Assembly: GCF_000195295.1 (NCBI RefSeq)
Contig: NC_015388.1
Coordinates: 992,001-1,056,000, forward strand
Direction: 5' to 3'
Origin: Desulfobacca acetoxidans DSM 11109
Lineage (GTDB): Bacteria > Desulfobacterota > Desulfobaccia > Desulfobaccales > Desulfobaccaceae
DNA length: 64,000 nt
This document shows positions 45,552 to 63,555 of the stretch, one piece after another. Position numbers and translations under genes: made by a program. The notes under the pieces are model-generated. The model had not been told where the DNA came from and ran no database searches. It was given only the letters and a program-made list of their open reading frames with translations. Within the stretch, counting starts at the first letter, position 1; the number at the start of each line of letters is the position of its first letter.

Positions 45552-46091
45552 ATGGCTATCGCTAAGAATATATTAATAAAGAGGCATGTCGAACTCATTA
45601 CTGAACGGGCGGTGGAAAGATTTCTCGAAAGGCTGTTTATTCGCAATGCCCCGTTAAGATGCCTCTATATAGTTTCGCCATTTATAGCGGCGATGCAGGA
45701 AAACCGCTTTTCTCTGGCAGATTTGCGAACTAAAATTGAATATAGTCAAATACCTACTTATTTAATTACTCGAACCCCGGTTGAGGATTACCATTCCACG
45801 GCTATGGAGGTCCTTCTCAATAGCCCGTGGATAGAGATTCGCTATAATCAGTTCATCCACGCTAAGGTCTACATCGCCATAGCAAAAAAAGAATCCGAAT
45901 CATTCGCCCTTTTCGGCTCAGGAAACTTAACCGGCAGGGCAAGAGCAGCAAACATCGAGGTGGCAATGTTGGTTTCTAGCGAAGGGCCAGGTAAAGAAAT
46001 CTTACGACAGCTCGAATACTGGGTATCAGTTAGCTTGCGGACACTCAAAGCCAGCAAGCTTATTCAGCCAATAAAAGTTAGGGGGAATTAA
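45552..46091 (+). CDS. PLD-family nuclease-like protein (operon gene 1)
   Basis: The 179-residue protein has one phospholipase-D-type active-site half: FIHAKVYIAI (His and Lys of HxK near residues 103-105) and FGSGNLTGRARAANIEVAM (the GS.N and Glu parts) about 18 residues later. An N-terminal helical section precedes. Single-HKD proteins work as dimers; relatives of this size act as nucleases or are found in restriction systems (DISARM DrmC, Dpd DpdK). It is the first gene of the operon, 3 bp before the ATPase. Nuclease activity is inferred. Confidence 0.82.
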   Translation: MAIAKNILIKRHVELITERAVERFLERLFIRNAPLRCLYIVSPFIAAMQENRFSLADLRTKIEYSQIPTYLITRTPVEDYHSTAMEVLLNSPWIEIRYNQFIHAKVYIAIAKKESESFALFGSGNLTGRARAANIEVAMLVSSEGPGKEILRQLEYWVSVSLRTLKASKLIQPIKVRGN

Positions 46092-46094
46092 GTC

Positions 46095-47252
46095 ATGGAA
46101 TTTAAAGATTGGTTCTGCTTGAGTCAAAGAGAAAGTTTTACCATTGATCCCAAGATTAATCCCTCGGATGCCCAGTTTTATTTTGGCCGCAAACAACTAG
46201 CGGAACGGATGCACAACCAGATAAAAAGAGCCTTTATTGATCCTCAGGTGCCTAAAATGATGGTCTGGGGGCCTTATGGCTGCGGCAAAACCCAAACGCT
46301 TTATTATCTCTCCTACTGGCTCAAAACAAGTAAACCGGCATCGTGCAAAGGAATTCCACATACGGTTCATCTTGACATCGAAATGCAGAGCAAATCAACT
46401 GCCGCAAGTTGGCATCTGCAAAATATGGAAGCTCTCGGCATGCAAGCCGTGCAAAAATGGCTAGATAGTCTTTATGGTAAATCTGCCAAATTCGAGCAAG
46501 AAATATCAAAATTAACCGGTGATCCGAATATATTCCAAACTTTTTACCAATTGAGGGGCGGGGGTGATTTAGGCTTTACGGCCTGGAGATGGCTAACCGG
46601 GCAGAAGTTGGCTGCCAAGGAACTGCAAGAAATCAAGGTGACCCGTAATCTCGGCGAAGTAGGGGTGGGCGATATGGTGGCAGCCCTGCAAGCCTGCGGG
46701 AATCTTGCCAAAGCCGTTGGGGAAGCCCTGATTTTATTTATCGATGAAATGGAAGAATTGCAAAATGTCCGGGAAGGGGACGCCGCCGAGTCGTGGCATC
46801 AATATATTCGTAAACTGGCTGATAATGCAAACTCCTCAGTCGGTTATATTATAGGATTTAAGGCCGACACCCGAGATGATGCCCCCCGAGTTTTAATCCG
46901 GGACGATGTGGTTTCCAGAATGAGCGCAATGAATTTAATTGAGCTGGAAACTCTGGCGGCACCGGCAAATGTGCAAAATTTTGTGAAGGAAATGTTACAG
47001 CATCTGGTAGATGCTACAAAAGCCAGCAAGCTCATCCAGGATGAAGGATTAGCTTCTACAATCGAAACCTATCCTTTCACTGCCAGCGCTTTTGAGCTCT
47101 TATGCGATTATGCTTGTCAGGATGTAATCAAATCAACCCCACGGAATATCATCAGAACCATTAATGAGTGTGCTATTGCGGCATGGGACGCCCAAGAGAA
47201 AGTCATTGATGATCACATTGTCAATGAAATTGCACCGATCATCTTTGGTTAA
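46095..47252 (+). CDS. AAA-type P-loop ATPase (operon gene 2)
   Basis: The 385-residue protein has an N-terminal DPKINPSDAQFYFGRKQLAE segment, Walker A WGPYGCGKTQT (Lys 65), Walker B LILFIDEMEEL (Asp 218/Glu 219) and further sensor-like stretches (GYIIGFKADTRDDAPRVLIR). It belongs to the large AAA/ORC-like ATPase class often seen in defence operons. It is tightly linked to the PLD gene (3 bp) and the HerA-type gene (11 bp). It probably loads or drives the nuclease or translocase, which is an inference. Confidence 0.85.
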   Translation: MEFKDWFCLSQRESFTIDPKINPSDAQFYFGRKQLAERMHNQIKRAFIDPQVPKMMVWGPYGCGKTQTLYYLSYWLKTSKPASCKGIPHTVHLDIEMQSKSTAASWHLQNMEALGMQAVQKWLDSLYGKSAKFEQEISKLTGDPNIFQTFYQLRGGGDLGFTAWRWLTGQKLAAKELQEIKVTRNLGEVGVGDMVAALQACGNLAKAVGEALILFIDEMEELQNVREGDAAESWHQYIRKLADNANSSVGYIIGFKADTRDDAPRVLIRDDVVSRMSAMNLIELETLAAPANVQNFVKEMLQHLVDATKASKLIQDEGLASTIETYPFTASAFELLCDYACQDVIKSTPRNIIRTINECAIAAWDAQEKVIDDHIVNEIAPIIFG

Positions 47253-47263
47253 CTCGGGACAAG

Positions 47264-48646
47264 ATGATGAAAAAGTTTACCACCAAGCCGAAAGTTTTTC
47301 GATCCTCGCCGGGATATGCCGGTACTCCTCAATTCGAAAGTAAGAGCTGGGTTTATCTCGGGAGGCTGGGGGAGGCCGGAGCTTTGACAGATGTCCGGTT
47401 CGACACTGACATGGCTCATGTGGTGGCTCTGTTTGGCAAACGGGGGTCCGGGAAATCATATACTTTGGGGACCCTTTTGGAGGGTCTGTGCACTCAACAC
47501 CATGAATCCACCATTGCCAGCAATCCCCGAAATAAATCCATCCTACTTTTTGACACGTTAGGCGTATTCCAATGGATGAGCATCCTCTTAAAGGAAGACA
47601 GCCAGAAAGAAATTTTAAAAGAACAATTCGCCCTGCGTCGGGGCTGGCCCGTTAAGCCGGAACCGTTAGACATCGCCATTTGGATTCCGAAAGGGACCCG
47701 GACCTCTGGCACTCCTGCCGATCACTTAGAATTCTCCGTCGATTGCTCCGACTTTGCGGCGGAAGACTGGGGCTATCTTTTAGGGTTGGATATTTATCAG
47801 GATAGGATGGGGCAGCTTTTAAATGATGCCTATATCAAGGTAACTCTTGAGGGTTGGAGCGACAATAACCGACGGTATAAACCAAAACCCCAATATTCCA
47901 TTGAAGAGCTCATCTCATGTGTAAAAAACGACGTTGAACTCAATACTGCCTATCAGGGTGAAACTCTGAGGGCAGTGCTGCAACAACTTATGACTTATCG
48001 GCGCAACCCTCTCTTTGAACATCAAGGCACCACTTTGCAGGAGTTTTTAAAACCTGGCCGCATGAGCGTTATCGTTATGAATAAGATGTCCGATGAGTTG
48101 CGGCTTATCGTGATGTCAGCTCTTCTGCGGCGTTTGATTGCTTTGAGAGTTAAAGCTTCGGAGGCCGAGAAGCACCTTAAAATTTTAGAAAATATAACTA
48201 ACCAAGAAAAAGCCGATCTCCAAGAAGTGCTTGCTAATTCTGTGCCCTCAACCTGGGTGTGCATTGATGAAGCCCAAAATATCTTGCCTGCGGAAAGGCG
48301 CACCTCTGCCACAGATATTATTGTCAAGTATGTAAGAGAGGGCCGGAACTACGGCCTATCTTTTATGGTGGCCACTCAGCAGCCAACCGCCATAGACCCG
48401 AGAATCTTAGCTCAAGTTGATACCCTGATAGTGCACAAATTAACTGTTCAGGGAGATATAGATTATATTCGGAAAAATATAAAGTCCAACCTTCCCGAGG
48501 AAGTAAAATACGCCAACTCGGTTCTTGATTTCAGTCAACTGCTACGTAGTCTCGATGTGGGCCAGGCAGTAGTTTCCAACACGGAAACCGAGCGAGCCTT
48601 TGTTATGGATGTGCGACCCCGTATTAGCGTCCACGGAGGTTTTTAA
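47264..48646 (+). CDS. HerA/FtsK-type DNA translocase ATPase (operon gene 3)
   Basis: The 460-residue protein has a short N-terminal beta region (SWVYLGRLGEAGALTDVRFD), Walker A LFGKRGSGKSYTLG (Lys 64), Walker B WVCIDEAQNILPAE (about residue 335) and the HerA-like strand FMVATQQPTAIDPRILAQVD with LIVHKLT. HerA proteins are hexameric DNA pumps that pair with nucleases. The neighbours, a PLD-type nuclease and a second ATPase, fit such a machine. It overlaps the next gene by one base. Confidence 0.9.
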   Translation: MMKKFTTKPKVFRSSPGYAGTPQFESKSWVYLGRLGEAGALTDVRFDTDMAHVVALFGKRGSGKSYTLGTLLEGLCTQHHESTIASNPRNKSILLFDTLGVFQWMSILLKEDSQKEILKEQFALRRGWPVKPEPLDIAIWIPKGTRTSGTPADHLEFSVDCSDFAAEDWGYLLGLDIYQDRMGQLLNDAYIKVTLEGWSDNNRRYKPKPQYSIEELISCVKNDVELNTAYQGETLRAVLQQLMTYRRNPLFEHQGTTLQEFLKPGRMSVIVMNKMSDELRLIVMSALLRRLIALRVKASEAEKHLKILENITNQEKADLQEVLANSVPSTWVCIDEAQNILPAERRTSATDIIVKYVREGRNYGLSFMVATQQPTAIDPRILAQVDTLIVHKLTVQGDIDYIRKNIKSNLPEEVKYANSVLDFSQLLRSLDVGQAVVSNTETERAFVMDVRPRISVHGGF

Positions 48647-49896
48647 TGGCAGGCAGAATCAGGGTATTGGATACAGCCGGTCGCACGATGCAAAGGCTGG
48701 GATACCTAAAGCCCCTCTGCGCCCTGGTCAACGAGACCGAAACCAGTAATTTATTTTCTCTTGGCAAGCGTTTGATCGACAGGGTTACCAAAAAAATTAG
48801 AATATCTCCCCCCCTCGAAGACCATATTCAAAAATATGTCAAGCTTCGTCTAACCGACGGCACCTATAAGGAATTAAGAAAAGCAGTCTTAAACGGCGCC
48901 AATAACGCTCAAATAGCTATGGAGATTCAGGACCTCTACCTTGCTGATAACGATCTCCCATCTCGCACCGGTAAGCTAGTTGAAGCCAACTGGCAACGCT
49001 ATCCTTATTTGGGCACTTCCCTGGAGTTGATCAAAAAAGGAACCTACTCCGCTCTGACACGCAGCCTGGTTCTGCTTGCCCTCACTCCCAAAAAAGAACA
49101 GGATGCTTTTCAGGAATATAATTCAGCCTGTAATCCCATGCGTCTATCAGATGCTCAGGCTATACTCCTCCTCTATTGTTTTATCGACAATGACGCCGAG
49201 GTCATCTTACCATTATTTAACAAACTCCTGAACGTGAACGCAGACAGTTTTAACGAAAGGCTAGCTGGAGAATTCCTGCCGGATATCTTGCGGAATATCG
49301 TCAAAGATTTTTCGCAGCGAAGTCTCACCATTGAAGAACGAGATCGACTATCCCTCATAAATAAAACCGCAGCAAGCATTGATAAAAATAAAGGCAAGCC
49401 TTATACCGGTGGGGGAGCACGGGAAGAGTCCATCAGGGTCCGACTGGAACCATTCTGCGATCTGGGACTTTTTCAAAAACCTAATAAAGACCGATATGAA
49501 TATGCAACAACCCCAGCTTTCAAAATACTCTTGGAAAATTGGGGAAGTGTCGCGGAAACCGATGTGTTTCTGCAGCAGACCTTTTTTCAGACCTTTGCCG
49601 CCGGTCGGGGATTTTCGGTACAAGAATCTTCAGAAAGCGAGGCAGTGGCAGCCCTGGTACGAGCCGGGGAAATTCTGAAAAGTTCATTGGGATATACCCC
49701 CATAACCGATGTCGGGTTGCTTGCTGGAATACAGCTTCTCACCGGAAAAAAGAAGATATTAGAGCTTGGTCGCACCTTCGAGCTTCTGAAGGCTTTGCAA
49801 AAACGTGACCCTGATTTTGTCAGATTTACGGTTGATCGTATGGGCGCACTGGCCCATGTAAAATTTTTAAAGCCGCAACCTGAGAATGGCGCTTGA
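48646..49896 (+). CDS. Winged-helix-like protein of unknown family (operon gene 4)
   Basis: The 416-residue, mostly helical protein has no catalytic motif I recognise. The segment ESIRVRLEPFCDLGLFQKPN followed by DRYEYATTPAFKILLENW looks like a winged helix with its beta wing. ETSNLFSLGKRLIDRVTKKI forms a helical N-terminus. It is locked between the HerA-type gene and the methyltransferase by 1- and 4-base overlaps, so it belongs to the complex. A DNA-reading or scaffolding role is an inference. Confidence 0.7.
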   Translation: MAGRIRVLDTAGRTMQRLGYLKPLCALVNETETSNLFSLGKRLIDRVTKKIRISPPLEDHIQKYVKLRLTDGTYKELRKAVLNGANNAQIAMEIQDLYLADNDLPSRTGKLVEANWQRYPYLGTSLELIKKGTYSALTRSLVLLALTPKKEQDAFQEYNSACNPMRLSDAQAILLLYCFIDNDAEVILPLFNKLLNVNADSFNERLAGEFLPDILRNIVKDFSQRSLTIEERDRLSLINKTAASIDKNKGKPYTGGGAREESIRVRLEPFCDLGLFQKPNKDRYEYATTPAFKILLENWGSVAETDVFLQQTFFQTFAAGRGFSVQESSESEAVAALVRAGEILKSSLGYTPITDVGLLAGIQLLTGKKKILELGRTFELLKALQKRDPDFVRFTVDRMGALAHVKFLKPQPENGA

Positions 49897-52800
49897 ATAC
49901 GCACGTAGGCGAAATATTTCAACGGTTTCTCGCTCTTTTTCCTTCCGAAGCAGATGCTCTCCTGAGCATTGAGCAGATTCAGTCAGCCGATGCCATTGCC
50001 AGCACCAAGACGCCTTATTTTACTGTTCTGATAAAAGGGCGACATTCCCAGGGTGATGAACCTCTGGCTATGGTATTAATGACGCTGCCATCACTGTCAG
50101 CCGAGGATCACGCCATCCTGGATTTTGCCAGCCGCCGGGCAAGAGCCTACAAAGCCCCTTTTTTTCTTACCTGGACCCTTCGACAGGCCATCTTATGGCG
50201 CACTCCCAAACCTGGAATTCCCGCCAGCCGGGATTCCTTGGAAAAGGTGAAGCAGTATCCCGAATTGTTTGAGGTAGATGCCACTGAGCAGCATCAACAA
50301 TCTGAACCCGTCAAACTGACTATCCTCAATCGGGGTAAAGAACTGATCCGGGATTTGGAGAGTCTCCATAAAAACGAAGCCCTGGAATTAGTCCAATTAG
50401 ACGCCACCTATTTTGTGGGCCGTTTATTGGAGGCGGTTCATACTCTCCTGCCCCTGGTGAGTGCCTCCATCCATCAACGTCTCCAGCATGAGATACAATT
50501 CAACAAAGAAATTTCGGCCTGGGCTGTCAAACAGGCTATTGCCGGTTCTCCCAGCGATCCGGAGTTTGCCCAAGCCATCGCCCGCCAGATTATTTATCGT
50601 CTTTTAGGCAAAGTCCTGTTTTATCAAAGCCTGCGGCGTTCCGCCCGCCATCTGCCGAAACTGGAACTGGATAGGGTTGACACTTCCCAGGTCCTGCCGA
50701 CCTTACGAGCTGCCTTTACTCAAGCCTTAGCCATAGATTACCATGCCGTATTTGAAGAAGACGTTCCTGACCGGCTGCAGTGGCCTTCCCAAGCCTCCTT
50801 GGAATTGGCAAAACTCATTGGGGATTTTAATACCCGAGACTTTGCCCATCTGCCCCAGGATGTCGTGGGAAACGTCTTTGAACGGTTGATTCCACCCGAA
50901 GAACGGCATGGTTTGGGCCAATATTTCACCAGTGAAAATCTCTGCGATTTCATTGCAGCTTTTTGCATTCGTTCACCTCATGATACCGTGCTTGATCCGT
51001 CCTGCGGCACCGGCACCTTTCTCATCCGGGCTTATGACCGGCTCCGCTGGTTGGGCCGCCATGACCACACCAAACTCCTTTCGCAGATTTGGGGGGTGGA
51101 CATCGGCCCTTTTCCGGCGGAATTGGCCACTATCAATCTTTTCCGACAACGCATCAGTGAACATGGCAATTTCCCCCGGATCATCTGCCAGGATTTTTTT
51201 AGAATCACACCGGGAGAGTGCTTTCCCTTCCCACCCCCAAAAATGGACCTGGATAACCCGCAAACCATCGAAGAACCTTTCCCCCAGTTTGAGGCCATCA
51301 TTGGCAACTTTCCCTATGTCAGCGCCGATAGAATAGAAAAGTATGAAGCCGGATATTTAGATTTTATCCGTCGACGTCTCCTGAATGGTTGGTTTGAAGA
51401 TTATCCTCAGCTTTTCTGCCATAAAAATCAGAATGCACAGATAAAGTTTGAGCGTGATATCGCTGAGAATCGTCATAAGCGCAATGACTACCAGAAAAAT
51501 GGCCTCCAGATTCACATTTCCACGTATGCTGATCTCTACGTTTACCTGTTCTTTCATGCCGCCCGGTTCTTGAAACCCGGCGGCCGCATGGGGATTGTCA
51601 CTTCCAATGCCTGGCTGGATGTCAATTATGGTTTTGAGCTGCAAAAATTCTTTCTGCAGTATTTCAAGATCGCGGCCATCCTGGAGAGCCGCTGCGAACC
51701 ATGGTTTACCGAGGCGGCCGTCAATACCATAGTCACGATTTTGGAGCGGTGCGACGTCCCCCAAGATCGGGATGCCCACCTGGTGCGATTTGTCAAAGTC
51801 AAGCGGGCACTCAATGACTTGATTCCCGGTGACCCGGTGATCGAAGCCTTGCCCCGATGGCAGCATTTAACCGGACTGGTGCACCACCTGGAAAAGGCCG
51901 GAAATAAATATGGCAAAACCTATCCCTTGGGGATGGTTACCGAAGAAAACGATAATTTCCGTATCCGCATTCTGCGTCAGGGGGAGATGAGCCAGGAGGT
52001 GGAGAGGACAGGCAAAACGGTAAAATGGGGTCGGTATCTGCGGGCGCCACAAGTATTTTTTGATCTAATAACTAAGGGGAAAGTGTGTTTATTTCGAGAT
52101 ATTGCTGCCTTACAACGTGGAGGGTTAACTCGAATCAATGAATTTTTCCATATAACCCAAGAAACTGCTGCAAAATTCAATCTTGAGGATGAATATCTGT
52201 TGCCACTTATGAAAAGTCCCAAAGAAACCAGCACGATATTTTTAAATCCAAATGATCTTAAACTCAGAATTTTTGTTTGTAGGAAAAACAAAAAAGAGTT
52301 AGAAAAGGAGGGCCATTATGGTGCCTTACGATATATTGAGTGGGGAGAAAAACAGACATACAAGACTGGCGAATTTAAGGGGTTGACATGGCCCGAAGGT
52401 ACATGGCTAAAAAAACGATATCCTGGCTGGTGGGCATTACCTGATAACGAAACACAAACAGGACAGATATTTTGGAATAAAGATCGAGCAGATAGACATT
52501 TTACGATAGTATCCCAACTCCCTATCATCCCTGATTCCACTTGCTACTTCATAAAGGCGGACAGAAATATTATTTCTGACATGATCTTGGCGGCATTTCT
52601 GAATTCCACAATATGCTATTTATTTATAGAAATTGTTGGGAGAGTAATTTTAGGAGATGGTGTCCTGGCGACAAAGGTTGAAGAGGCTAATGAATATCTT
52701 CATATTCCCGATCCCCGTTTATTAAGCGAAGATGAGAAAAAAGAAATATTATCAGCTTTTGAAAAATTATCCTGCCGTCAAATCGAATCAATTTTTGATG

Positions 52801-53417
52801 AGGTTAAGCAAGTTGATAGAAATGCTTTAGATACTTTAATCCTCAAAGCCATGGGCCTTGATCCCAGGCAGTGTTTGAAGCCGCTTTATGAAGGACTCTG
52901 CGAATTGGTGCGGGAACGCATTCAGTTAGGTCAGATGCGGCAGAAGGCCAGGAAGACCAAGACCAGGGTGGCGAAAGCGGAACAGAAAATTGCCGAAGAA
53001 GTATTGGATGAAATTATACCGGAAGGTCCCCGGCGTTTTCCGGAAGACTTTTTCTCCCCGGCTGCTGCGGCAGATATAAAGCATGCGGTGGAACTGCCAC
53101 CTGAACCCATATTATTTAATAATATTCCTCTATTTATGGAGGTGCAGGCAAAGGACGGGGATTTCCGGCACCCGGTCGCCTCACCAGCGGAGGGAAAATT
53201 TCTGGTCTATGCCCAACAGGCCGGTCACCAAGTTGCCCAGGTCCCTGATAAGAAAGTCGAGATTAGCAGGACCGTGGCTAATTATGAGAGGTATCTGCGA
53301 GAGCTCCGGCAGCAGCTAACCGAAGCGTATTACCGCTGGACTCTGGACGCTCGGGCAGCCGCCCGTTTAACCCAGTCAGCCTTTAATCGTTTTCATCTCC
53401 CTACCCCCGAGGAATAA
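49893..53417 (+). CDS. Large N6-adenine DNA methyltransferase with shared C-terminal domain (operon gene 5)
   Basis: The 1174-residue protein starts at TTG overlapping gene 4. The helical N-terminal third leads to VFERLIPPEERHGLGQYFTS and motif I VLDPSCGTGTFLIRAY (about 368). Motif IV reads IIGNFPYVS (about 472-475), with Phe where NPPY-type enzymes have Pro. A target-recognition-like middle and coiled-coil linker follow. The last 140 residues (about 1035-1174) carry the domain with FPEDFF, VELPPEP, PAEGKFLVYAQ and VANYERYLRELR that recurs in genes 7 and 8. It resembles Eco57I/PglX-type methylases in size and motif order; no nuclease motif was seen. Confidence 0.87.
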   Translation: MNTHVGEIFQRFLALFPSEADALLSIEQIQSADAIASTKTPYFTVLIKGRHSQGDEPLAMVLMTLPSLSAEDHAILDFASRRARAYKAPFFLTWTLRQAILWRTPKPGIPASRDSLEKVKQYPELFEVDATEQHQQSEPVKLTILNRGKELIRDLESLHKNEALELVQLDATYFVGRLLEAVHTLLPLVSASIHQRLQHEIQFNKEISAWAVKQAIAGSPSDPEFAQAIARQIIYRLLGKVLFYQSLRRSARHLPKLELDRVDTSQVLPTLRAAFTQALAIDYHAVFEEDVPDRLQWPSQASLELAKLIGDFNTRDFAHLPQDVVGNVFERLIPPEERHGLGQYFTSENLCDFIAAFCIRSPHDTVLDPSCGTGTFLIRAYDRLRWLGRHDHTKLLSQIWGVDIGPFPAELATINLFRQRISEHGNFPRIICQDFFRITPGECFPFPPPKMDLDNPQTIEEPFPQFEAIIGNFPYVSADRIEKYEAGYLDFIRRRLLNGWFEDYPQLFCHKNQNAQIKFERDIAENRHKRNDYQKNGLQIHISTYADLYVYLFFHAARFLKPGGRMGIVTSNAWLDVNYGFELQKFFLQYFKIAAILESRCEPWFTEAAVNTIVTILERCDVPQDRDAHLVRFVKVKRALNDLIPGDPVIEALPRWQHLTGLVHHLEKAGNKYGKTYPLGMVTEENDNFRIRILRQGEMSQEVERTGKTVKWGRYLRAPQVFFDLITKGKVCLFRDIAALQRGGLTRINEFFHITQETAAKFNLEDEYLLPLMKSPKETSTIFLNPNDLKLRIFVCRKNKKELEKEGHYGALRYIEWGEKQTYKTGEFKGLTWPEGTWLKKRYPGWWALPDNETQTGQIFWNKDRADRHFTIVSQLPIIPDSTCYFIKADRNIISDMILAAFLNSTICYLFIEIVGRVILGDGVLATKVEEANEYLHIPDPRLLSEDEKKEILSAFEKLSCRQIESIFDEVKQVDRNALDTLILKAMGLDPRQCLKPLYEGLCELVRERIQLGQMRQKARKTKTRVAKAEQKIAEEVLDEIIPEGPRRFPEDFFSPAAAADIKHAVELPPEPILFNNIPLFMEVQAKDGDFRHPVASPAEGKFLVYAQQAGHQVAQVPDKKVEISRTVANYERYLRELRQQLTEAYYRWTLDARAAARLTQSAFNRFHLPTPEE

Positions 53418-53418
53418 C

Positions 53419-54942
53419 GTGAATCAGGCTCCTGTCATACCTCTATCTCTGGGTCCAACCATTGACCGGATTGTGGAAAACCTGGCCAAAGGGCATGATA
53501 CTGCCTTGATTGCGCCTCCAGGCTGCGGAGCTTCCACTTTTTTAGACCATCTTCTGGAAAAATTTGCCAATCAGCGTTCACTCATCTGCCGTTTCGTCAA
53601 TCATTCACAAGCAGAAGTAACAGAAACTATTGCCGCAATAAAAACCTTTGCTGCTGATCCAAGCAAAATCGCCCCCAAAGTAGTCATTCTAGATAACACA
53701 GCGAAATTGTTACCTGACGATTTTAAAGAATTACTGGGAGTTTTACAGGAACAGCGCCGGCTGGCCGAGTTTCAATGTCTTTGGATCGGCCCCTTGGATT
53801 CACGAGCCGTTTATCAAGATTTCGGCTTTCGGCTGCATTCTGTCCCCAAGTCGCATGTTTCCTTTCCAATATTGCTCCGGGACGAGATTCTGGCGATTTA
53901 CCGTGCCATTGCCTCCGCCAATAGCTGCACCTGGGGTGAGGCAATTCTTTTTCTCATGCTGGATTTCTGCGGCAATGACCTCTCCCTGGTAAAAGGCGCC
54001 ACGGAATATTTTTATGGTAATTGGGGAGAAAGATTGTATGACCAGTCGGTTTGGGATCGCCTCAGCGAGTGGCTGGAACAGGATGCCACTGTGGAAGCCT
54101 ATCGCCAACGTTTACAGAATCTCCCTGACAAATGTCAACAATATTTAAAGCTCTTCCGGCTGGGCGGAAAGCCCATCAGTTCCAGGATGGAATTCTATGA
54201 AGAGGTAGATGATGCCCTCCGGACCTTCTGTCTGCAAGGTTTTCTCGTTCACAATTTCATACCTGGATTTTACCAGTTGCGTAACCTGACCGTCAGAATG
54301 CTTATTCACGAAGGGCTGCAACCGGAGATTATTTTCCGGCGGGCAACCAACGAGCGGGTGGCCCAGCTTTTACAGGATGTGGAAAGTATGCTGCGAAGCG
54401 TGCTGCTGTCGGTGTTCCACACTCTTGGAGAGGAAAGGGTACGGGGTTATTTGGTAAAACGCCAAAGTGAGCAAGAATTCATTCCCAGTGATTTGAACCG
54501 AGAATTGTTACAATGGGCCAGAGAGCAGGGTGTGCCCGATCTGCGAGAGAGTTTAAGTGAGCTCATCAATCGACACCGGCTAAGCTTTAAGGAAAAAAAC
54601 TCCCTGTGGTCTCGGATTGAACATCTGATCCGGCAAGAAGGCCTTATTGACACCGATGATCAATCATCGACCTATCTGCGCTACGTCGATTACCTTACCT
54701 TCGGGGAACTCGGTGCTGCCATTTTGGATAACGTGGGTGAGGTTTTCCCCGGTTTGACCACTCAGCCAGATTCCAAAAAACAAGATTTAATCGCCAGATG
54801 GCGGGAATATATTTCCAGAGTGCGTCGACTGCGTAATCAAGTAGCTCATCTCCGTAATGTCAGTTTTCAGGATGTTGAGGACCTAGTTAATGTCGTCGGT
54901 TATATGCGCAAAGACCTCATTGCGTATGCCGCTTGGAGATAA
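53419..54942 (+). CDS. Degenerate P-loop protein with C-terminal HEPN-type motif (operon gene 6)
   Basis: The 507-residue protein starts at GTG. The P-loop region reads LIAPPGCGASTFLDHLL: the Walker A lysine is Ala 38. The Walker B-like strand is VVILDN (Asp 92, Asn 93), so ATP hydrolysis is doubtful. The middle is helical with a possible winged helix (YEEVDDALRTFCLQGFLVHN). Near the C-terminus RRLRNQVAHLRNVS contains RNxxxH (472-477), the signature of HEPN RNases, in a helical setting. It starts 2 bp after the methyltransferase stop. A STAND-like sensor with an RNase effector is a reasonable guess. Confidence 0.75.
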   Translation: MNQAPVIPLSLGPTIDRIVENLAKGHDTALIAPPGCGASTFLDHLLEKFANQRSLICRFVNHSQAEVTETIAAIKTFAADPSKIAPKVVILDNTAKLLPDDFKELLGVLQEQRRLAEFQCLWIGPLDSRAVYQDFGFRLHSVPKSHVSFPILLRDEILAIYRAIASANSCTWGEAILFLMLDFCGNDLSLVKGATEYFYGNWGERLYDQSVWDRLSEWLEQDATVEAYRQRLQNLPDKCQQYLKLFRLGGKPISSRMEFYEEVDDALRTFCLQGFLVHNFIPGFYQLRNLTVRMLIHEGLQPEIIFRRATNERVAQLLQDVESMLRSVLLSVFHTLGEERVRGYLVKRQSEQEFIPSDLNRELLQWAREQGVPDLRESLSELINRHRLSFKEKNSLWSRIEHLIRQEGLIDTDDQSSTYLRYVDYLTFGELGAAILDNVGEVFPGLTTQPDSKKQDLIARWREYISRVRRLRNQVAHLRNVSFQDVEDLVNVVGYMRKDLIAYAAWR

Positions 54943-55036
54943 TAGAAACAAGGGACACTAAACAAGTGAGATGTCCAAAGATCCTATAGTAATTTTTGGA
55001 TTAAATCCTTCTACCTATATTAAAGGGAGATTGTGA

Positions 55037-55861
55037 GTGTCAATAATAATTAAACAACTCATGGATGTCCTGGAATATATAAAGAATAATTATAGAGGCT
55101 ATGATATTAGTGAAATCCGTATTAAAGCAGATAGATTTGTGGCAAATAAATATAATGTTAATCATCGAACAATTGCAGATGCTTATAGAAGGAGATTGAA
55201 AAATAAAGATGGAAATGACCTTGGTACTCAATACTTTGACCGATTATTAGAGAGTTGGTTATCAAAAGGGGATCAAGAATTAAAAAATATTGTTTTAAAA
55301 CATTGTAAAGATAGTAGCGATACTAATTTAGTCTTAAATTTTTTTGGCATTAAAAATGATAATTTAATTGATAAACCGAGAATAACTGGCAAGCAAGAGC
55401 CATTAAAACCCCGAAAGCCAAATAATATTCCTGATTATGAAGAGCTCATAAATTTGGTAATAGAAGTAATTGCACCAAGAGGGGGAAAAAAATTTCCAGA
55501 GGAATTTCTAAATAATAACGAAATACATAGTATTTTTGAAGTTGAGTTGCCCGGAACGTTCCTCCAGATAGACTCTTTGTTCAAATCAATTATTGCTTCA
55601 CCCAAAAAATTATTCAAGTACGAAGCAAGAAATCCTGCAGAGGCAAAATATATTTACTATTCTCATGGAATAGGTATAAATAAAATTTCCATACCTCAAG
55701 ACAACCTTATCCTGTTTAAGGCAGTTAAAAACTACGAAAAATATTGCAGAAAAATAAAAGAAGAAGCATTTGGACATGTTATAGAATTTACCAATGATGA
55801 ACATCAGGCCGATTTACTTACTCAGGAAATAGTTAAACGACTTGGATTAAGGGGCATATAG
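55037..55861 (+). CDS. Protein with N-terminal helical/HTH part and the shared domain (operon gene 7)
   Basis: The 274-residue protein (GTG start, AAAGGGAGA ahead) is clearly more AT-rich than its neighbours. The N-terminal part (VLEYIKNNYRGYDISEIRIK, RTIADAYRRRL) looks like a helix-turn-helix-containing domain of unknown family. From about residue 143 the shared domain begins: KKFPEEFL, VELPGTFL, NPAEAKYIYYSHG, ISIPQDNLILFKAVKNYEKY, ending before residue 274. The same domain closes the methyltransferase and gene 8. Codon use suggests this gene joined the operon from a different source. Confidence 0.65.
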   Translation: MSIIIKQLMDVLEYIKNNYRGYDISEIRIKADRFVANKYNVNHRTIADAYRRRLKNKDGNDLGTQYFDRLLESWLSKGDQELKNIVLKHCKDSSDTNLVLNFFGIKNDNLIDKPRITGKQEPLKPRKPNNIPDYEELINLVIEVIAPRGGKKFPEEFLNNNEIHSIFEVELPGTFLQIDSLFKSIIASPKKLFKYEARNPAEAKYIYYSHGIGINKISIPQDNLILFKAVKNYEKYCRKIKEEAFGHVIEFTNDEHQADLLTQEIVKRLGLRGI

Positions 55862-55873
55862 AATATATTCCTG

Positions 55874-56839
55874 ATGGAGATAGCAGTGGAAGACCAAGAC
55901 CTGGGAACTATAATATTAGCTGTATCATCAGAATTGGTTTTTAGTATTGGGAGTTATAAAGGGAAACACTACGCCAAAATCAGAAAATTTGTGAAGACGG
56001 GCAAATATAGCGGCCCTACCAAAGCCGGGCTTTCTTTCACAGGACATACCCTTGTTGCATTAATCAAAATCCTCCAGCAATTGCAGGCCTCATTGCCGGG
56101 CGTTCAGGAACAGGAGATTGCTCGGCTGCCCAAAACTGGAGACAGAGAAATTGTTGTCCTCATCATGCCTCCAGATGATGTCCAGTCTCTTCCCAATATC
56201 GATATCCGGGAGTATATCGAATCAGCAAATTTCACTGGGTTCAGTAAGAAGGGCGTGCGATTTAATTGGCACAAGCTTCAAGATGTTTTGGCGCTTCTGC
56301 AAGTCCAGGCCCAGCAACTCCAGCAGCATGAAAAGCAGACCCCGACCCTTTTCCCGGAAGCCAGACCGGAGTGGGTGAATGAAGCAGAAAAGTTAAATAG
56401 TCCCGCCAGCGGAGGAAAAGACGAGGTCCTTGAGAAGCTATTACCGTCTGGGCCTAAAATTTTTCCCGAGGATTTTCTGGATAACGTGCAGGGTGGGGCA
56501 CAAGAGGTAGAGCTTTCCAGTGACGTTCTGAAGGTGGAGCAGCAATCAGACGGAACCTATGCAGTCTGCTCCGAGTTCGGCTTTTGCCATGGTGTCAGAA
56601 ACCCCACAGAAGGAAATTATCTTTTTTATAGCTGGCTAAGGGGTAAAACCAAGGTGCAGTTACCACAAGAGATGATAACTGTTTTTCGAACCGTCAAGGC
56701 TTATGAAAATTACCTCCGCAACCTGCAAAAGTCCCTTATCCAGGCCTACGAGCGTAAGAGCGGCCACCGGCCCATTGCCGAACATCGGGTCAAACAGGTT
56801 TTTAACCGATATGGGCTGCCCTGGATTGAGGGGTCGTAA
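55874..56839 (+). CDS. Two PC4-like repeats plus the shared domain (operon gene 8)
   Basis: The 321-residue protein has two repeats resembling the PC4 single-stranded-DNA-binding fold: YKGKHYAKIRKFVKTGKYSG with KAGLSFTGHTLVALIKIL (about residues 35-75), and NIDIREYIESANFTGFSKKG with VRFNWHKLQDVLALL (about 115-150). Residues 183-321 carry the shared domain: KIFPEDFLD, VELSSDVL, NPTEGNYLFYSW, VQLPQEMI, VKAYENYLRNLQ. It is the last gene of the operon. The PC4-like part predicts ssDNA or RNA binding; the domain link predicts contact with the methyltransferase system. Confidence 0.7.
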   Translation: MEIAVEDQDLGTIILAVSSELVFSIGSYKGKHYAKIRKFVKTGKYSGPTKAGLSFTGHTLVALIKILQQLQASLPGVQEQEIARLPKTGDREIVVLIMPPDDVQSLPNIDIREYIESANFTGFSKKGVRFNWHKLQDVLALLQVQAQQLQQHEKQTPTLFPEARPEWVNEAEKLNSPASGGKDEVLEKLLPSGPKIFPEDFLDNVQGGAQEVELSSDVLKVEQQSDGTYAVCSEFGFCHGVRNPTEGNYLFYSWLRGKTKVQLPQEMITVFRTVKAYENYLRNLQKSLIQAYERKSGHRPIAEHRVKQVFNRYGLPWIEGS

Positions 56840-57218: not shown

Positions 57219-58403
57219 TTGGAAAATGACGTTATAAAAGAAGACAATATCTGGGTAGACCCCGAAGAAGATGGATCTGATTCATTTGAAGACATCAGTT
57301 TCACTGAATATGATATCTCCACGTCGCCGAATGATTTTAACATTAAGACGCTATTTGATTTCATAGGCTCGGGTGTCGTTAAAATTCCTGGCTTTCAGAG
57401 AAATTATGTATGGGATATAAAGAGAGCCTCGAAGCTAATAGAGTCAATAATAATTGGAATACCAGTACCTCAGATTTTCTTATACGAAGAAGCAAAAAAT
57501 AGATTTATTGTTATAGATGGTCAGCAGCGATACATGACTATTTATTACTTTATGAAGAAACGATTTCCACGAAAGGAAAAGCGGCTTGAATTAAGGGTTA
57601 TTTTTGATAAAAATAAAGGCATACCGGATGCTATTATTAATAATAATGATTTTTTTACAGATTTTAATCTTAAGCTTCCAACTTCACAACCTAATAAAGT
57701 CAACAAGTTTAATAATCTTAATTATTTCACCTTAGACGATGAAGACAAGACATCTTTTGAACTTAGAACAATTAGAAACATTATTATAAAGCAAAATGCT
57801 CCAGACGATGAGCATTCTATTGTATTTGAAATATTTAATAGACTTAACTCTGGAGGAGTAAACCTAAAGCCACAAGAAATAAGAACCAGTCTTTTTCATT
57901 CAATATTCTATGATATGCTTTATAGTCTAAATCTGGAAGAAAAATGGCGAAATCTTACACCATCTGCGACTCCGGATTTAAACATGAAAGATGTTGAAAT
58001 ACTACTTAGAGGATTTGCAATGTTAATTGATGGTGAAAACTATAAACCATCGATGACCAAGTTTCTTAATAAATTTTCGCTGAAAGCTAAAAATTTTCAA
58101 GTTGAGAATATTAATTACTTAAAGAGTATTTTCTTGGCCTTTATAGACAAGGTTGCTCACTCGGATGGTCGCCTATTTCACAGTAAGACAGGTCGTTTTA
58201 ATATATCTGTATATGAGTCAATATTCGTGGCAAGCTGCAACAAGGCCTTCTCAGCAAAGACTCTAAATGTAGCCAATATAGACTTTGATAAAGTTAGTTT
58301 GCTAAAAGAAGACGATGGGTTTATCAATGCAACTCAATCGGATACAGCCAGCGAAAAGAACGTAAAATATAGAATAGAACGCGCTAAAAGGATGTTAGCA
58401 TAA
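57219..58403 (+). CDS. DUF262 (GmrSD N-terminal type) protein
   Basis: The 394-residue protein starts at TTG with GGAG upstream. The DUF262 pattern is present: VVKIPGFQRNYVWDIKRASK, LIESIIIGIPVPQIFLY, VIDGQQRYMTIYYF (the DGQQR box), IFNRLNSGGVNLKPQEIR. DUF262 is the nucleotide-hydrolysing half of the GmrSD type IV restriction family and occurs in many defence loci. The C-terminal DUF1524 nuclease half is absent. It is AT-rich and ends 1 bp before the HEPN gene, a probable partner. Confidence 0.87.
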   Translation: MENDVIKEDNIWVDPEEDGSDSFEDISFTEYDISTSPNDFNIKTLFDFIGSGVVKIPGFQRNYVWDIKRASKLIESIIIGIPVPQIFLYEEAKNRFIVIDGQQRYMTIYYFMKKRFPRKEKRLELRVIFDKNKGIPDAIINNNDFFTDFNLKLPTSQPNKVNKFNNLNYFTLDDEDKTSFELRTIRNIIIKQNAPDDEHSIVFEIFNRLNSGGVNLKPQEIRTSLFHSIFYDMLYSLNLEEKWRNLTPSATPDLNMKDVEILLRGFAMLIDGENYKPSMTKFLNKFSLKAKNFQVENINYLKSIFLAFIDKVAHSDGRLFHSKTGRFNISVYESIFVASCNKAFSAKTLNVANIDFDKVSLLKEDDGFINATQSDTASEKNVKYRIERAKRMLA

Positions 58404-58404
58404 C

Positions 58405-58822
58405 ATGACGCCAGTTGAATTATTGAATGAAGAATATAAGTCAATAGTAGGATTTCTGAACGAAAACGTTCAACCATCTCTTTCAAGTGATGTCGATAAG
58501 TCATTTAAAAAAGTCATTGTTCTATCCTCAGCAAGCTATTTCGAGCATTTAATACAAGAGATCCTAATTGACTTTGTCACTAAAGAAACTAAAAACAACA
58601 TGAAAGCTATTAATTTTTTTAAAAAGAAAGCTATCGGCATGCAATACCATACATATTTCAATTGGGGTGAAAAAGATAACCCAGATAAACCAGGTAAAAA
58701 TGCTAATTCATTTTTCGCCTTATTTGGTGATACTTTTAAGAAGGAAGTAGAGGATGAAATAAAAAAAGACCAACGCCTCGACAAGTCGATGAAAGCGTTC
58801 ATTGAGATCGGACCCTCTGTGT
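58405..58822 (+). pseudogene. HEPN (MAE_28990-like) protein truncated by IS insertion
   Basis: About 138 residues of a HEPN-fold protein remain: SLSSDVDKSFKKVIVLSSAS, YFEHLIQEILIDFVTKETKN, NSFFALFGDTFKKEV and LDKSMKAFIEIG. The part that should follow, with the RNxxxxH active site, is replaced by the IS3 left end at 58818; the last four codons of the frame are IS sequence. The missing 3' end does not reappear beyond the IS. It was probably the RNase partner of the DUF262 protein. Confidence 0.75.
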
Positions 58823-58880
58823 CAATATAGCTGAGACACCCTCCCTGTGATAAATTACTGTAGGGCGGGGAGGGAAAAAA

Positions 58881-59426
58881 ATGAAAGAAACCGGATCACC
58901 AAAGATGATGACATCCCCCAGGGAGGAGATGGCAGAGGCCCCGGAACGGAGACCAGGTGAGCGTAGCGAATCTGGTCGAAGTGGAGGGGCCTCTGCCAAG
59001 AAGCTGGCCGCTCCCAACCCTTGCCAGCCTGTGCTCGTTCCCAATCCTGAGGTGTTAGAAAAACCCATACGGCGTCGGTTCACGGCAGAATATAAGCTGC
59101 GCATTCTGCAAGAAGTTGACGCCTTAAGCGAGTCCGGCCAGCTAGGCGCCCTCTTGCGTCGGGAGGGGCACTATTCCTCCAACCTCACTACCTGGCGCCG
59201 TCAGAGAGATAACGGCACCATCGAGGCGCTTAGTCCAAAAAAACGGGGCCGCAAATCTCGCCGGCAAGACCCGTTGATCCAGGAAAACGAGCAATTGCGC
59301 CGCCAAAATGAGCGCTTGGCTCGCCGCCTGAAAAAAGCCGAGGCGATCATCGATTTCCAAAAAAAAATCTCGGAGATCCTGGGGATCCCCCTGAGCCAGC
59401 CCGAATCAGAAGAGAACGATTCATGA
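58881..59426 (+). CDS. IS3-family OrfA (helix-turn-helix subunit)
   Basis: The 181-residue protein has the OrfA pattern: RRFTAEYKLRILQEVDALSE, LGALLRREGHYSSNLTTWRR and a coiled-coil (ENEQLRRQNERLARRLKKAE). It binds IS ends. The first 45 residues are low in conservation. Its stop overlaps the orfB start (ATGA), so orfB may be made by coupling or frameshifting. Confidence 0.88.
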   Translation: MKETGSPKMMTSPREEMAEAPERRPGERSESGRSGGASAKKLAAPNPCQPVLVPNPEVLEKPIRRRFTAEYKLRILQEVDALSESGQLGALLRREGHYSSNLTTWRRQRDNGTIEALSPKKRGRKSRRQDPLIQENEQLRRQNERLARRLKKAEAIIDFQKKISEILGIPLSQPESEENDS

Positions 59427-60436
59427 CGGCCGCCCAGTCTGCTCCGGAATTGGGGGTTTCAACTGCCTGCCAGGCTTTGGGACTGAGTCGTGCCACGTTT
59501 TATCGCCATCTTACTCCTCAAAGGCCCCAGGCTCAGATATCTTCCCCATTGCCGCATCACCGAGCCTTAGACCAGGGTGAACGTCAGGCGGTGCTCGATC
59601 TTCTCCATCAGGAACGATTCGTGGATAAAGCACCTCGGGAGGTCTATGCCACTCTCCTCGATGAAGGGGAATACCTGTGTTCGCCCAGTACCATGTATCG
59701 CCTTCTGAACCAGGAAGGCGAAGTGAAGGAACGACGCAATCAGCTGCGCCACCCGCCTTACCAGAAGCCCGAACTATTAGCTACCGGCCCCAACCAGGTG
59801 TGGTCTTGGGACATCACCAAGCTTTTAGGGCCGGTGAAATGGACCTATTTTTACCTGTATGTCATCCTGGATATCTTTAGCCGTTATGCCGTCGGCTGGA
59901 TGGTGGCGCACCGGGAAAGCGCTGCTCTGGCCGAACGGCTGATCCGTGAGACCTATGACAAACAGGGCATCGTGCCTGGACAACTTACGATCCATGCGGA
60001 TCGGGGCTCCTCCATGAAGTCCAAGCCAGTGGCCTTATTACTGGCAGATTTAGGAGTTACCAAGACGCATAGCCGCCCGCATGTTTCCAACGACAACCCA
60101 TTTTCAGAAAGCCAGTTTAAGACCCTGAAATACCGACCGGATTTTCCCAAACGATTCGGCTCGTTGGAAGATAGCCGGCTATTTTGTCAAACCTTTTTCG
60201 AGTGGTATAACACTGAACATCGTCATAGCAGCATCTCCTTGCTGACTCCGGAGACCGTGCATTACGGCCTCGCTGACGGTGTTCGGGCCGCCCGGCAGAA
60301 AGTACTCCAAGCAGCCTATGTCATGCATCCGGAACGCTTTGTCCGCAAACCTCCAGTCGCTCTCCCCCTACCCGAGGCCGTCTGGATAAATCCCCCCATC
60401 AAGAGCAAGGAGGGAAGCCTAACAGAGATACACTAA
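59423..60436 (+). CDS. IS3-family OrfB transposase (DDE)
   Basis: The 337-residue catalytic subunit has an N-terminal HTH_21-like region, then the rve core: WSWDITKLLGPVKWTYFYLY (first Asp), TIHADRGSSMKSKPVALLL (second Asp), DNPFSESQFKTLKYRPDFP (Glu), and WYNTEHRHSSISLLTPE. All three catalytic residues are present, so the element looks active. Confidence 0.92.
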   Translation: MTAAQSAPELGVSTACQALGLSRATFYRHLTPQRPQAQISSPLPHHRALDQGERQAVLDLLHQERFVDKAPREVYATLLDEGEYLCSPSTMYRLLNQEGEVKERRNQLRHPPYQKPELLATGPNQVWSWDITKLLGPVKWTYFYLYVILDIFSRYAVGWMVAHRESAALAERLIRETYDKQGIVPGQLTIHADRGSSMKSKPVALLLADLGVTKTHSRPHVSNDNPFSESQFKTLKYRPDFPKRFGSLEDSRLFCQTFFEWYNTEHRHSSISLLTPETVHYGLADGVRAARQKVLQAAYVMHPERFVRKPPVALPLPEAVWINPPIKSKEGSLTEIH

Positions 60437-60697: not shown

Positions 60698-61264
60698 TTG
60701 AAATTTTTTGTCTTGACTTTAGGGGTAACCATACCCCTGAAATCCAATGCCTGCTTCGAGGTCATCGAAACGTTGAAAAATCCCGCTCCTGACAGGGTTC
60801 TAACTGACCAAATCATCCGTTTGAACTCCGAGCATGGTCTTCATAGCTATCAAGGCACCCTGCGCCGGGTGCACTACCGAGACCCTGAAACTGGCAAAGA
60901 ATATGTCTTTTTAACCAATCGCTTTGACCTGTCTGCCCTCGCCATCGCAGATCTTTACCGGCAACGTTGGCAGATAGAGCTTTTTTTCAAGTGGGTCAAA
61001 CAGAATCTGAAAATCAAAACCTTTTATGGCACTTTCCGAAATGCCGTCTTAATTCAAATCTGGACTGCTTTAATAGCCTATTTGCTGCTCATCTGGTTAA
61101 AAATCAAAAGCACCATAAATATCGGCATCTTAGAATTGTCTCGACTCATTCAAGCCACATTGATGGAACGACGTTCACTTTGGGAAACCATTTGTCCAAA
61201 AAAACGTCCACCTACCTCCATAAATAACCAGATGGACTTACTCAATTATTGTGCCGGACACTAA
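60698..61264 (+). pseudogene. C-terminal part of an IS4-family transposase
   Basis: A 188-codon fragment carries IPLKSNACFEVIE, RRVHYRDPETGKEYVFLTNR and the YREK signature YRQRWQIELFFKWVKQNLKI, then LTALIAYLLLIWL-like helices and MDLLNYCAGH. The N-terminal half with the first catalytic Asp is missing. Its right end truncates hsdS, so it once inserted there. Confidence 0.75.
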
Positions 61265-62287
61265 TGATTTTTGGAGATATTTTTTCAAGTAGATACCAAA
61301 TAAAAAAGCTATCACTTTTTTCTTGTAAAGCTGAAATTGCTGCAACTCCTCGTCCAATGCAAAGTTCTCGGTCAGCAAGATTCAAACGGCCAGTGGTATT
61401 TCCACGAACACACACAATAATATCACCGGGTTTACATAACCGAGTAGGTGAGGTTGTCCACTTAACAATAATTGGATATATTTTTCCATATTCGGCAGGA
61501 CCATTTACTAAAGGGACACCATTTCCAATAGTGTTATAAGTAGAGCTATTTGGAGAACTACCCATTTTAATTTCAGTCAGACTCCCTAAGTTAGTAACTT
61601 TCCATTCTTTTGGCATTAATCCGATCTCCGTCTCCTGCAACTTCGCCTTTTTGACTTCGTGGAAGGACACGGGGCCGTAAGTGAACAGGTGCCGCATGAG
61701 GCTTTGCTTGAGCTGCCGGGCGGCGGCGATAACCTTTTCGGTGGCCTCCTTTGCCCGCTGCACGGTGCGCAGGACGTGGGCAATGGCTTGTTGTTCGGGG
61801 AGGGGGGGGAGCGGAATATCCAGGTTGGCAACATCAGTTCGTGGCACCCCTTTAATGGTAGCCCCACGCTTATTATCTTCAAACCATTTTGGATGGATTG
61901 CTGTTTTAAACTTAGAACAAGGAACCCTGGCTCAACGTCGGAAACTGGTATAAAACCTGTTAAGTCCTGGCTAATGGCTATATCAAAAGTTGCTACGACA
62001 GCTTTGCCAACGCCAACCCTTGTTCCGATTAAAATACCGCCTTTAGGCACCATGTTTGAAGAAGAATTGACAAGTCCTTCCTCGGTAATACATCGCTGAT
62101 AGCGGTCAAGGTAAATGTCGTCTTTTTGAATAACTGCAGAAGTAGTCCATGGTTGATCCCCATCCCAGAACTCAGGTTTTTTAGTTGATGGGGTTCCGCC
62201 TCCAAACATTCTTGTGGCCAAATCTCCTAATTTGACCAGTTGCCATTCTTTTGGCAATTGAGAATAATTTTTAAGTTCCTCAACCAC
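61260..62287 (-). pseudogene. hsdS: Type I restriction specificity subunit HsdS, frameshifted and truncated
   Basis: It starts at GTG 62287 overlapping the stop of the duplicated hsdM tail. The first target-recognition domain is intact (LPKEWQLVKLGDLATRMFGG, WDGDQPWTTSA). The frame then slips by one base at a run of four C (61862-61865 on the plus strand); with one base restored, GATIKGVPRTDVANLDIPLP and LPEQQAIAHVLRTV follow. The second domain (EIGLMPKEWKVTNLGSLTEI) ends abruptly at SPKIIS, where the IS4 remnant begins. The gene is thus doubly broken, and the host methylase has no working specificity here. Confidence 0.8.
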
Positions 62288-62408
62288 TACGCCACGCCAC
62301 AAATCCGAGCTTGACCAACACCTCATCTAATTGCCGATCAGCCTCAGCCCGCTCCTTATCAGCCTCTTCCGGGGGGTCCGGCGTTTTCCAGCTATTCTTG
62401 ATCAGCAT
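62280..62408 (-). CDS. Duplicate HsdM C-terminal tail between fic and hsdS
   Basis: A 42-codon frame overlapping the fic 3' end reads MLIKNSWKTPDPPEEADKER and then AEADRQLDEVLVKLGFVAWR with a final SG. The last 27 residues match the end of HsdM at 63660 (AEADRQLDEILKKLGFIGWR with SG) at 21 of 27 positions. Its stop overlaps the hsdS GTG, preserving the classic hsdM-hsdS coupling. It is too short to be an enzyme; it probably keeps translation of hsdS coupled after fic entered. Confidence 0.75.
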   Translation of the reverse strand: MLIKNSWKTPDPPEEADKERAEADRQLDEVLVKLGFVAWRSG

Positions 62409-63555
62409 CTTTGAACAGGGATAAGTAGGGGGTGTAAATAAACCGGCGATGCCGCTTCTGGCCGGTCGTTTCTTCCATGAGCCCCAATTTTACCAACTGA
62501 TTCACCACCCGGTTGGCATTGCCGTAAGTTAATGCGGTAGTAGCCATGGCAGCTTGCACCGAAATGACGGGTTGGTAATACAAGGCCTCCAGCAAAGCCA
62601 GGGCCTTAGCGGCACTGCGTCCCAGAGAGTGGGTGACGAGATTTCGGTGGTCTTCCCGCAGATTGACGATTTTACGGGCAGTTTCCGTGGCCTCCTGGGC
62701 CACTTCGTAGACCCCTTGGAGAAAAAACTTCAGCCAGCCTTCTAAGTCCCCCTTATCACGGGTGGCTTGCAATCTCTCATAATAAGCGCCCCGATGTCGT
62801 TTAAAGTAATAGGACAAATAGAGCAGCGGGCGTTTTAAGACCCCCTCCTTACAGAGCAGGAAGGTGATCAGCAAACGTCCCATCCTGCCGTTGCCGTCGA
62901 TGAAAGGATGGATGGTTTCGAACTGGGCGTGGATGAGTCCAACCTTGACAAGCATGGGCATCGGCGTGGAATCATAGAAAAAGTTTTCCAGGTTATGCAA
63001 AGCCTCTTGCATCTCCTGGACCGGGGGCGGCACAAAGCTGGCTGTAGTCAGGCCATTTAACCCTGGTATGCCAATCCAGTTTTGGCTGCGCCGAAATTCT
63101 CCCGGATTTCTTTCACCACCTCTTACACCTTCCAAAAGCTTCGCATGAATCTCCCTGATCAGACGAAGGGATAAAGGCAACTCCTGCAATCTTTCCAGAC
63201 CGAAATTCATAGCGGCAATATAATTCACGACTTCGGCCACATCTTGAGGGTGGTCCGGCTCCAAAGCCTGAAATTCAAATTCCAGGACGTCCAGTAACGA
63301 TGCCTGTGTCCCTTCTATCTGACTGGATAGCACCGCCTCTTTACGGACATACATGGCGACAAAGAGTTCCGGATTCGGTAAGGTTTCTGTGGCCCCGTCC
63401 AACCTCCCCAAGGCCCGGTCAGCTTTAGATAAGATCGCCCATAAATCAGGATCAATGCGAATAGGCGGCTGGGGGGGCAAACCTTTGGGAATAAAGGCAC
63501 GGTAGCCTCCCGATTGCAGAATATATTGACCGGTGCGTTGTGTCTGTTTTGGCAT
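62392..63555 (-). CDS. Fic-domain AMP-transferase-type protein with C-terminal winged helix
   Basis: The 387-residue protein has an N-terminal inhibitory motif SSQIEG (SxxxEG, class II Fic), the active-site loop HPFIDGNGRMGR (about residues 217-228), and a C-terminal winged helix (ALTYGNANRVVNQLVKLGLM, GQKRHRRFIYTPY). Fic enzymes AMPylate target proteins and are held off by the inhibitory helix. It lies between hsdM and hsdS. A palindrome just upstream of its start suggests autoregulation through the winged helix. Confidence 0.92.
   Translation of the reverse strand: MPKQTQRTGQYILQSGGYRAFIPKGLPPQPPIRIDPDLWAILSKADRALGRLDGATETLPNPELFVAMYVRKEAVLSSQIEGTQASLLDVLEFEFQALEPDHPQDVAEVVNYIAAMNFGLERLQELPLSLRLIREIHAKLLEGVRGGERNPGEFRRSQNWIGIPGLNGLTTASFVPPPVQEMQEALHNLENFFYDSTPMPMLVKVGLIHAQFETIHPFIDGNGRMGRLLITFLLCKEGVLKRPLLYLSYYFKRHRGAYYERLQATRDKGDLEGWLKFFLQGVYEVAQEATETARKIVNLREDHRNLVTHSLGRSAAKALALLEALYYQPVISVQAAMATTALTYGNANRVVNQLVKLGLMEETTGQKRHRRFIYTPYLSLFKDADQE

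Follow-up and report, generated by a model that had tools for sequence, protein, structure and literature searches.

What does a protein with two PC4-like repeats do in a bacterial operon whose other genes resemble those of a defence system? The question arose from a first-pass annotation of a 64,000-nucleotide stretch of Desulfobacca acetoxidans DSM 11109 (NC_015388.1, positions 992,001 to 1,056,000; hereafter the window), in which tandem PC4-like repeats fused to a further domain had been noticed. The region concerned, 55874-56400, makes up the first ~175 codons of a single ORF of 321 aa with an ATG start (55874-56839, + strand). This gene, supported by Pfam PC4, an AlphaFold (AF2) model and orthologues, encodes two fused PC4 repeats, at 55895-56086 (+, aa 8-71) and 56111-56338 (+, aa 80-155), and ends in a C-terminal module of ~135 aa at 56420-56827 (+, aa 183-318). 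The computations returned two PC4 repeats with a predicted pseudo-dimer, a module shared with other proteins, and an eight-gene operon found in three settings.

The full-length protein matches the Pfam family PC4 (PF02229) at 6.5e-11 and 42 bits, with a curated cut-off of 25 bits. Cut out alone, repeat 1 passes this cut-off (E 1.3e-8, 34.7 bits) and repeat 2 stays under it (0.068, 13.1 bits), PC4 being the sole Pfam family listed for the isolated repeat 2 and the leading or sole one for repeat 1. The weak assignment of repeat 2 is secure because both orthologues (L024:7458-8408 and L035:9662-10615, 50-51% identical to the window protein) score two PC4 stretches apiece in Pfam. Furthermore, the two repeats align with each other in hhalign (P 3.2e-7), their pairwise score was reached by none of 5000 shuffles, and repeat 2 matches human PC4 at P 2.9e-5. 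Its IDIREY motif is identical to that of human PC4. The order of elements by which the repeats had been recognised, with IREY or KIRKF, then KKG or KAG, then a long helix, was found complete in both, and the order in the AlphaFold model agrees.

This model, for which an alignment of ten rows was used, has a mean pLDDT of 83. Its two beta-sheet-plus-helix repeats (aa 8-71 and 80-155) are followed by a disordered linker (156-181) and then by a C-terminal domain that forms a unit of its own. In repeat 1, strands at 8-16, 19-28, 31-41, 46-48 and 53-55 are followed by a helix at 57-71; in repeat 2, the strands lie within 80-131 and the helix spans 132-155. Because the whole-chain pTM is 0.49, the placement of the C-terminal domain relative to the repeats is undefined. 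The expected PC4 fold is borne out by the match of repeat 1 to Burkholderia PC4 BPSL1147 (PDB 5a4n; Z 8.7, 1.6 Å over 67 residues) and to human PC4 (Z 6.1). The best solved match, over about aa 5-151, is PURA repeat I-II (8cht_B; Z 15.8, 2.6 Å, 137 residues), and human and fly Pur-alpha repeat I-II structures match at Z 15.8 to 14.6 (2.6-3.1 Å, 132-139 residues). Since PC4 in its normal action is a homodimer (PMC4350104), the best interpretation of the two repeats is a pseudo-dimer formed by one chain. In the predicted model they take the PUR-type two-repeat arrangement within one chain, and most likely they act as a single intramolecular PUR-like pseudo-dimer. The proposal of tandem repeats therefore stands as to the two PC4 copies, but probably not as to two independent units. 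PURA/Pur-alpha repeat I-II (8cht, 5fgp) likewise pairs two repeats within one chain; PURA is eukaryotic, whereas the window protein is bacterial and has no sequence match to the PUR family in Pfam.

Contacts of PC4 with ssDNA involve F77, R86, W89, K97, R100 and K101 (PMC4350104). Repeat 1 keeps an aromatic-KGK hairpin (Y28-K29-G30-K31), in which Y28 is the F77 equivalent (W in the orthologues) and the positions of K29 and K31 hold K or R across orthologues. Together with the equivalents of R86 (R37) and R100 (K50), this hairpin is kept in 3/3 orthologues. Repeat 2 retains IDIREY, KK-G and the contact residues R112 (R86), K125 (R100) and K126 (K101), and the F77/K78/K80 hairpin residues are absent. 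Neither repeat keeps the tryptophan of W89, its position being V40 in repeat 1 and I115 in repeat 2. All orthologues combine a basic repeat 1 (pI 9.4-9.8; about 9.6 in the window protein) with an acidic repeat 2 (pI 5.6-5.8). Judged from these residues, ssDNA binding is plausible, chiefly via repeat 1. The affinity for nucleic acids may be low or RNA-directed, because valine and isoleucine stand in for W89, and repeat 2 is acidic (pI 5.6) and without the hairpin residues. Stand-alone PC4/YdbC proteins such as BPSL1147 have the same repeat fold and several ssDNA-contact residues as in repeat 1; the window protein differs from them by two copies per chain, the added module and the missing W89 equivalent.

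The loss of ssDNA contact residues from repeat 2 would also suit a PUR/PC4-like regulator of the operon, acting on RNA or transcription outside any defence complex. A bacterial PUR protein, Bpur, is reported to modulate transcription and bind nucleic acids (PMC3764826). A regulator would need no module in common with the methylase of the operon, and we consider this role improbable.

The PC4 protein is encoded by the last of eight genes arranged head to tail on the + strand; they span 45552-56839 and are spaced by -4 to 94 bases. The first (45552-46091) encodes a PLD-family (HKD) nuclease-like protein, ZacB/DrmC-like, with one HxK motif, HAKVY (Pfam PLDc_2 2.1e-5); its planctomycete copy (see below) passes the Pfam cut-off. 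Two ATPases with intact Walker A motifs follow. One is a 385-aa ORC/Cdc6-like (BrxC/BrxD-like) AAA ATPase (46095-47252; Pfam BrxC_BrxD 8.5e-6; PADLOC BrxD; Walker A GPYGCGKT), with 78% identity between the operons, and the other is a HerA/FtsK-type translocase ATPase (47264-48646; Pfam DUF87 1.5e-12; PADLOC mad8/HerA; Walker A GKRGSGKS), 80% identical in the planctomycete. The fourth protein (48646-49896), of 416 aa and no assigned family, is kept in 3/3 operons at 62-64%; it has no PADLOC or NCBIfam match and a Pfam match to DnaT_2 that is sub-threshold only, and a phylum scan with it found the window alone. Next comes a type IIG-like N6-adenine methylase of 1174 aa (49893-53417; Pfam N6_Mtase 3.4e-14, Eco57I 1.2e-12; PADLOC IIG/mad2). 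Its motif IV is NFPY in 3/3 operons and NPPY in four distant relatives, and because it reads NFPY, not NPPY, methylase activity is not certain. The sixth gene (53419-54942) encodes an NTPase-like protein with weak Pfam HEPN matches and a C-terminal HEPN-like motif, RNQVAH (R-x4-H), kept in all three orthologues; by reading of the three copies, the Walker A lysine is missing (GCGAST or GCGMTT). The seventh (55037-55861) encodes a 274-aa protein with a helical N-terminus, inferred to be HTH-like, homologues of which occur in other contexts. Overall, this content agrees with the earlier description of the operon as defence-type.

A link between three of these proteins is provided by the module. 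Residues 183-318 of the PC4 protein recur at the C-terminus of the methylase (52995-53402; BLASTP E 4e-19) and of the 274-aa protein (55457-55849; 2e-16), and the latter two copies match one another at 1e-13 (BLASTP). Identity among the three copies of the window is only about 30%; FPE.F, VEL, PxE and VxxYExYxR are among the invariant positions. Modelled alone by AlphaFold, the module reaches a pLDDT of 91 and a pTM of 0.85. A structure search against the PDB gave nothing above noise (best Foldseek E 0.29, best VIA Z 3.2), which does not prove that the fold is new. No Pfam family matches the module convincingly, and a PDB sequence search with its profile returned weak, unrelated matches only.

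The domain fused to the repeats had been taken as specific to this system. The fusion is real, but the specificity is not, as the module sits on the methylase and the 274-aa protein as well, and it is not confined to this operon, because it also ends lone methylases in two genomes (G501, G685) and forms stand-alone proteins on a bacterial chromosome (G292) and, nearly stand-alone, on a phage contig (L025:156-755). The lone methylase of G501 (L051:2112-6057) has NFPF as motif IV and adjoins a TIR-like protein. Neighbours of the phage module gene encode a DUF3799 nuclease, an AAA protein and DUF669; speculatively, the phage protein could be a decoy that competes for a docking site. Module-bearing genomes are rare, with 7/395 in the phylum of the window (five of these seven by weak matches) and 5/343 in that of the planctomycete. 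The diversity of an eight-row alignment of the module precluded its use in a genome scan, and support in the module tree is too weak to tell the oldest copy. At two loci that we read (L027:7768-9852 and L028:8532-10892), proteins of 690-790 aa near ruvB resemble the N-terminus of the methylase in their N-terminal region and match the module weakly at their C-terminus; they were left uncounted as module members.

Lone methylases and small stand-alone proteins are also what could be expected if the module bound DNA rather than protein. It would then have originated as the DNA-binding C-terminal domain of one subfamily of type IIG-like methylases and been copied to further DNA-binding proteins, and it would serve to aim its carriers at DNA, not as a docking handle. 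We regard this as rather unlikely. Three such domains in one operon would be redundant, as each carrier probably has its own DNA-reading head; in addition, the window copies have diverged to ~30% identity, and the modules of the PC4 proteins from the window and the phage orthologue (L024) have a near-neutral pI.

Three complete operons were found in all, two of which are close relatives (75-91% identical). Besides the window, they lie on a planctomycete MAG contig (JAAYEH010000149.1; L035) and on the IMG/VR contig IMGVR_UViG_3300050015_001122 (L034+L024), from a temperate phage. With the gene at 55037 and its HARE counterpart left aside, the proteins are 47-80% identical to those of the window, and the top values belong to HerA and the ORC ATPase. 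Both relatives lack the 55037 gene and carry, after the PC4 gene, a gene for a HARE-HTH, module and Mrr_N protein; the 55037 protein being replaced in this way, the reader head changes and the module stays. Scans for close relatives with a single PC4 or methylase sequence found none, a plasmid collection contained no relative of the window PC4 protein, and a phage collection none of the planctomycete PC4 orthologue or of the stand-alone phage module protein (L025). Distant plasmid methylases were rejected as operon relatives, their alignments falling mostly outside the module region.

On the phage contig, the operon is flanked by genes for portal, head protease, tail and integrase proteins and lies between the tail and integrase genes. 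With one of the three copies in such a place, the operon might be read as a replication, transfer or packaging cassette of a mobile element instead of an immunity system. However, phage-borne defence cassettes are common, and the window copy resides in a chromosomal defence cluster (McrBC-like, GmrSD/NsnA-HEPN and type I R-M-like genes), so that we hold a mobile-element function to be very unlikely.

Tandem PC4 had been called unusual, and a PF02229 scan of 345 genomes from the phylum of the window confirmed this. The 57 matches, in 46 genomes, were nearly all in short stand-alone frames, and ORFs with two PC4 domains were seen for the window gene and one gene of genome G111 only. Long PC4 frames in G013 and G296 were ordinary stand-alone genes read past their start codons. 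The tandem PC4 gene of G111 (151 aa; Pfam 2.3e-23, two stretches) lies in a locus (L062/L067, G111:C76) with the order DndB, tandem PC4, Eco57I methylase, DUF6577, AbiEii and PLD-SNF2 helicase. Its PC4 protein lacks the module, as does the methylase, judged by its sequence end. Tandem PC4 therefore recurs with a methylase, a PLD protein and a DNA-moving ATPase in a different operon.

The position of the G111 gene directly upstream of a methylase gene, and the module common to the PC4 protein and the methylase in the window, raise another option, in which the protein serves modification. It would melt or hold unpaired DNA at the fork and pass it to the methylase via the module, and new host DNA would be marked quickly. 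Such a helper is conceivable in view of Pur-alpha, whose repeat I-II binds ssDNA and needs no ATP to unwind duplex (PMC4764581). It would leave unexplained why a HARE/Mrr_N or HTH-like protein bears the same module. Moreover, most N6 methylases act on duplex DNA without a helper of this kind, and we consider a role in modification unlikely.

Anti-invader capture systems are known for pairing ORC with HerA (PMC10853773, PMC12839542), and the operon contains such a pair as adjacent genes (46095 and 47264). HerA/ORC capture systems and BREX-Related Capture (BRC) likewise combine a HerA/FtsK with an ORC/Cdc6 ATPase, and in the plasmid collection the nearest full-length relatives of HerA include one from an archaeal BRC-like locus. 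In contrast to these systems, no PglZ, DUF4007 or REase was found; the operon has the N6 methylase, the PLD protein, tandem PC4 and the module instead. A profile search of the operon for REases gave none beyond the PLD protein, and cryptic REase folds are possible. From BREX and BRC it further differs by the absence of PglZ with BrxC/DUF6079, the 385-aa BrxD-like ATPase being the sole counterpart. The methylase resembles mad2 (1e-27) and HerA resembles mad8 (2.6e-21) of MADS, but the remaining mad genes are unmatched in the operon and other ATPases also give weak mad8 matches. With DISARM the operon has a methylase and a PLD nuclease in common, but not the DrmA helicase or DrmB/DUF1998 (Pfam/PADLOC/NCBIfam), and the PLD similarity to DrmC is weak. 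A PC4-like protein in phage-host conflict is also known from AcrIIA22 (PMC8545432), yet that protein is a single-domain nickase and anti-CRISPR without a C-terminal helix. As a whole, the operon matches no PADLOC, BREX, BRC, DISARM or MADS system, and NCBIfam models name none. Its appearance is that of an anti-invader system of a type not yet described. We class it among defence-type operons built on a methylase, a PLD protein and the HerA/ORC pair known from capture systems, to which a PUR-like PC4 reader and the shared module are added.

We give an even chance to the reading that the operon is an anti-invader system guided by its methylase and driven by HerA/ORC, in which the PC4 protein reads unpaired nucleic acid. 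The pseudo-dimer would bind ssDNA at replication forks, displaced strands, R-loops or phage DNA ends. The module would be a docking handle that brings the PC4 protein, the HARE and Mrr_N or HTH-like protein, and the methylase onto one scaffold. Self DNA would be marked by the methylase, and reading of unpaired or unmarked invader DNA would lead to loading of the ORC/HerA ATPases, after which the PLD protein may cut DNA and the NTPase-HEPN protein add RNA cleavage. Precedents are DISARM, a methylase/PLD system that tells self from non-self by ssDNA ends (PMC9142583), and Pur-alpha, in which a fold of this kind binds ssDNA and opens duplex (PMC4764581). More tentatively, the module may have been copied onto the methylase and onto interchangeable readers, the PC4 pseudo-dimer serving unpaired DNA and the HARE-HTH/Mrr_N or HTH-like proteins duplex or modified DNA; in this undescribed immune architecture, several kinds of alarm signal would feed one ORC/HerA machine.

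Should this reading prove right, methylase/HerA defence systems would gain a dedicated reader of unpaired DNA, and the PURA pseudo-dimer a bacterial counterpart made of one chain. The module, for which the PDB holds no fold match, may then account for the use of one effector machine by several sensors. With tandem PC4 adjoining N6 methylases in two operons, ssDNA reading by the system is directly testable.

Upstream of the operon, at 32968-36554, lie McrB-like AAA and McrC-like genes, named by eye from the ORF translations and followed by an integrase gene (37303-38148); with the McrB/McrC-like genes, the operon is in a defence-gene neighbourhood. Directly downstream (57219-58830), a GmrSD_N/NsnA-like protein (NsnA 1.1e-58) and a RiboL-PSP HEPN protein are encoded, and past the latter gene there is a transposase-like gene pair at 58881-60436. 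Further on, the minus strand at 61242-63555 carries type I R-M specificity-like fragments and a Fic-domain-like protein, again named by eye.
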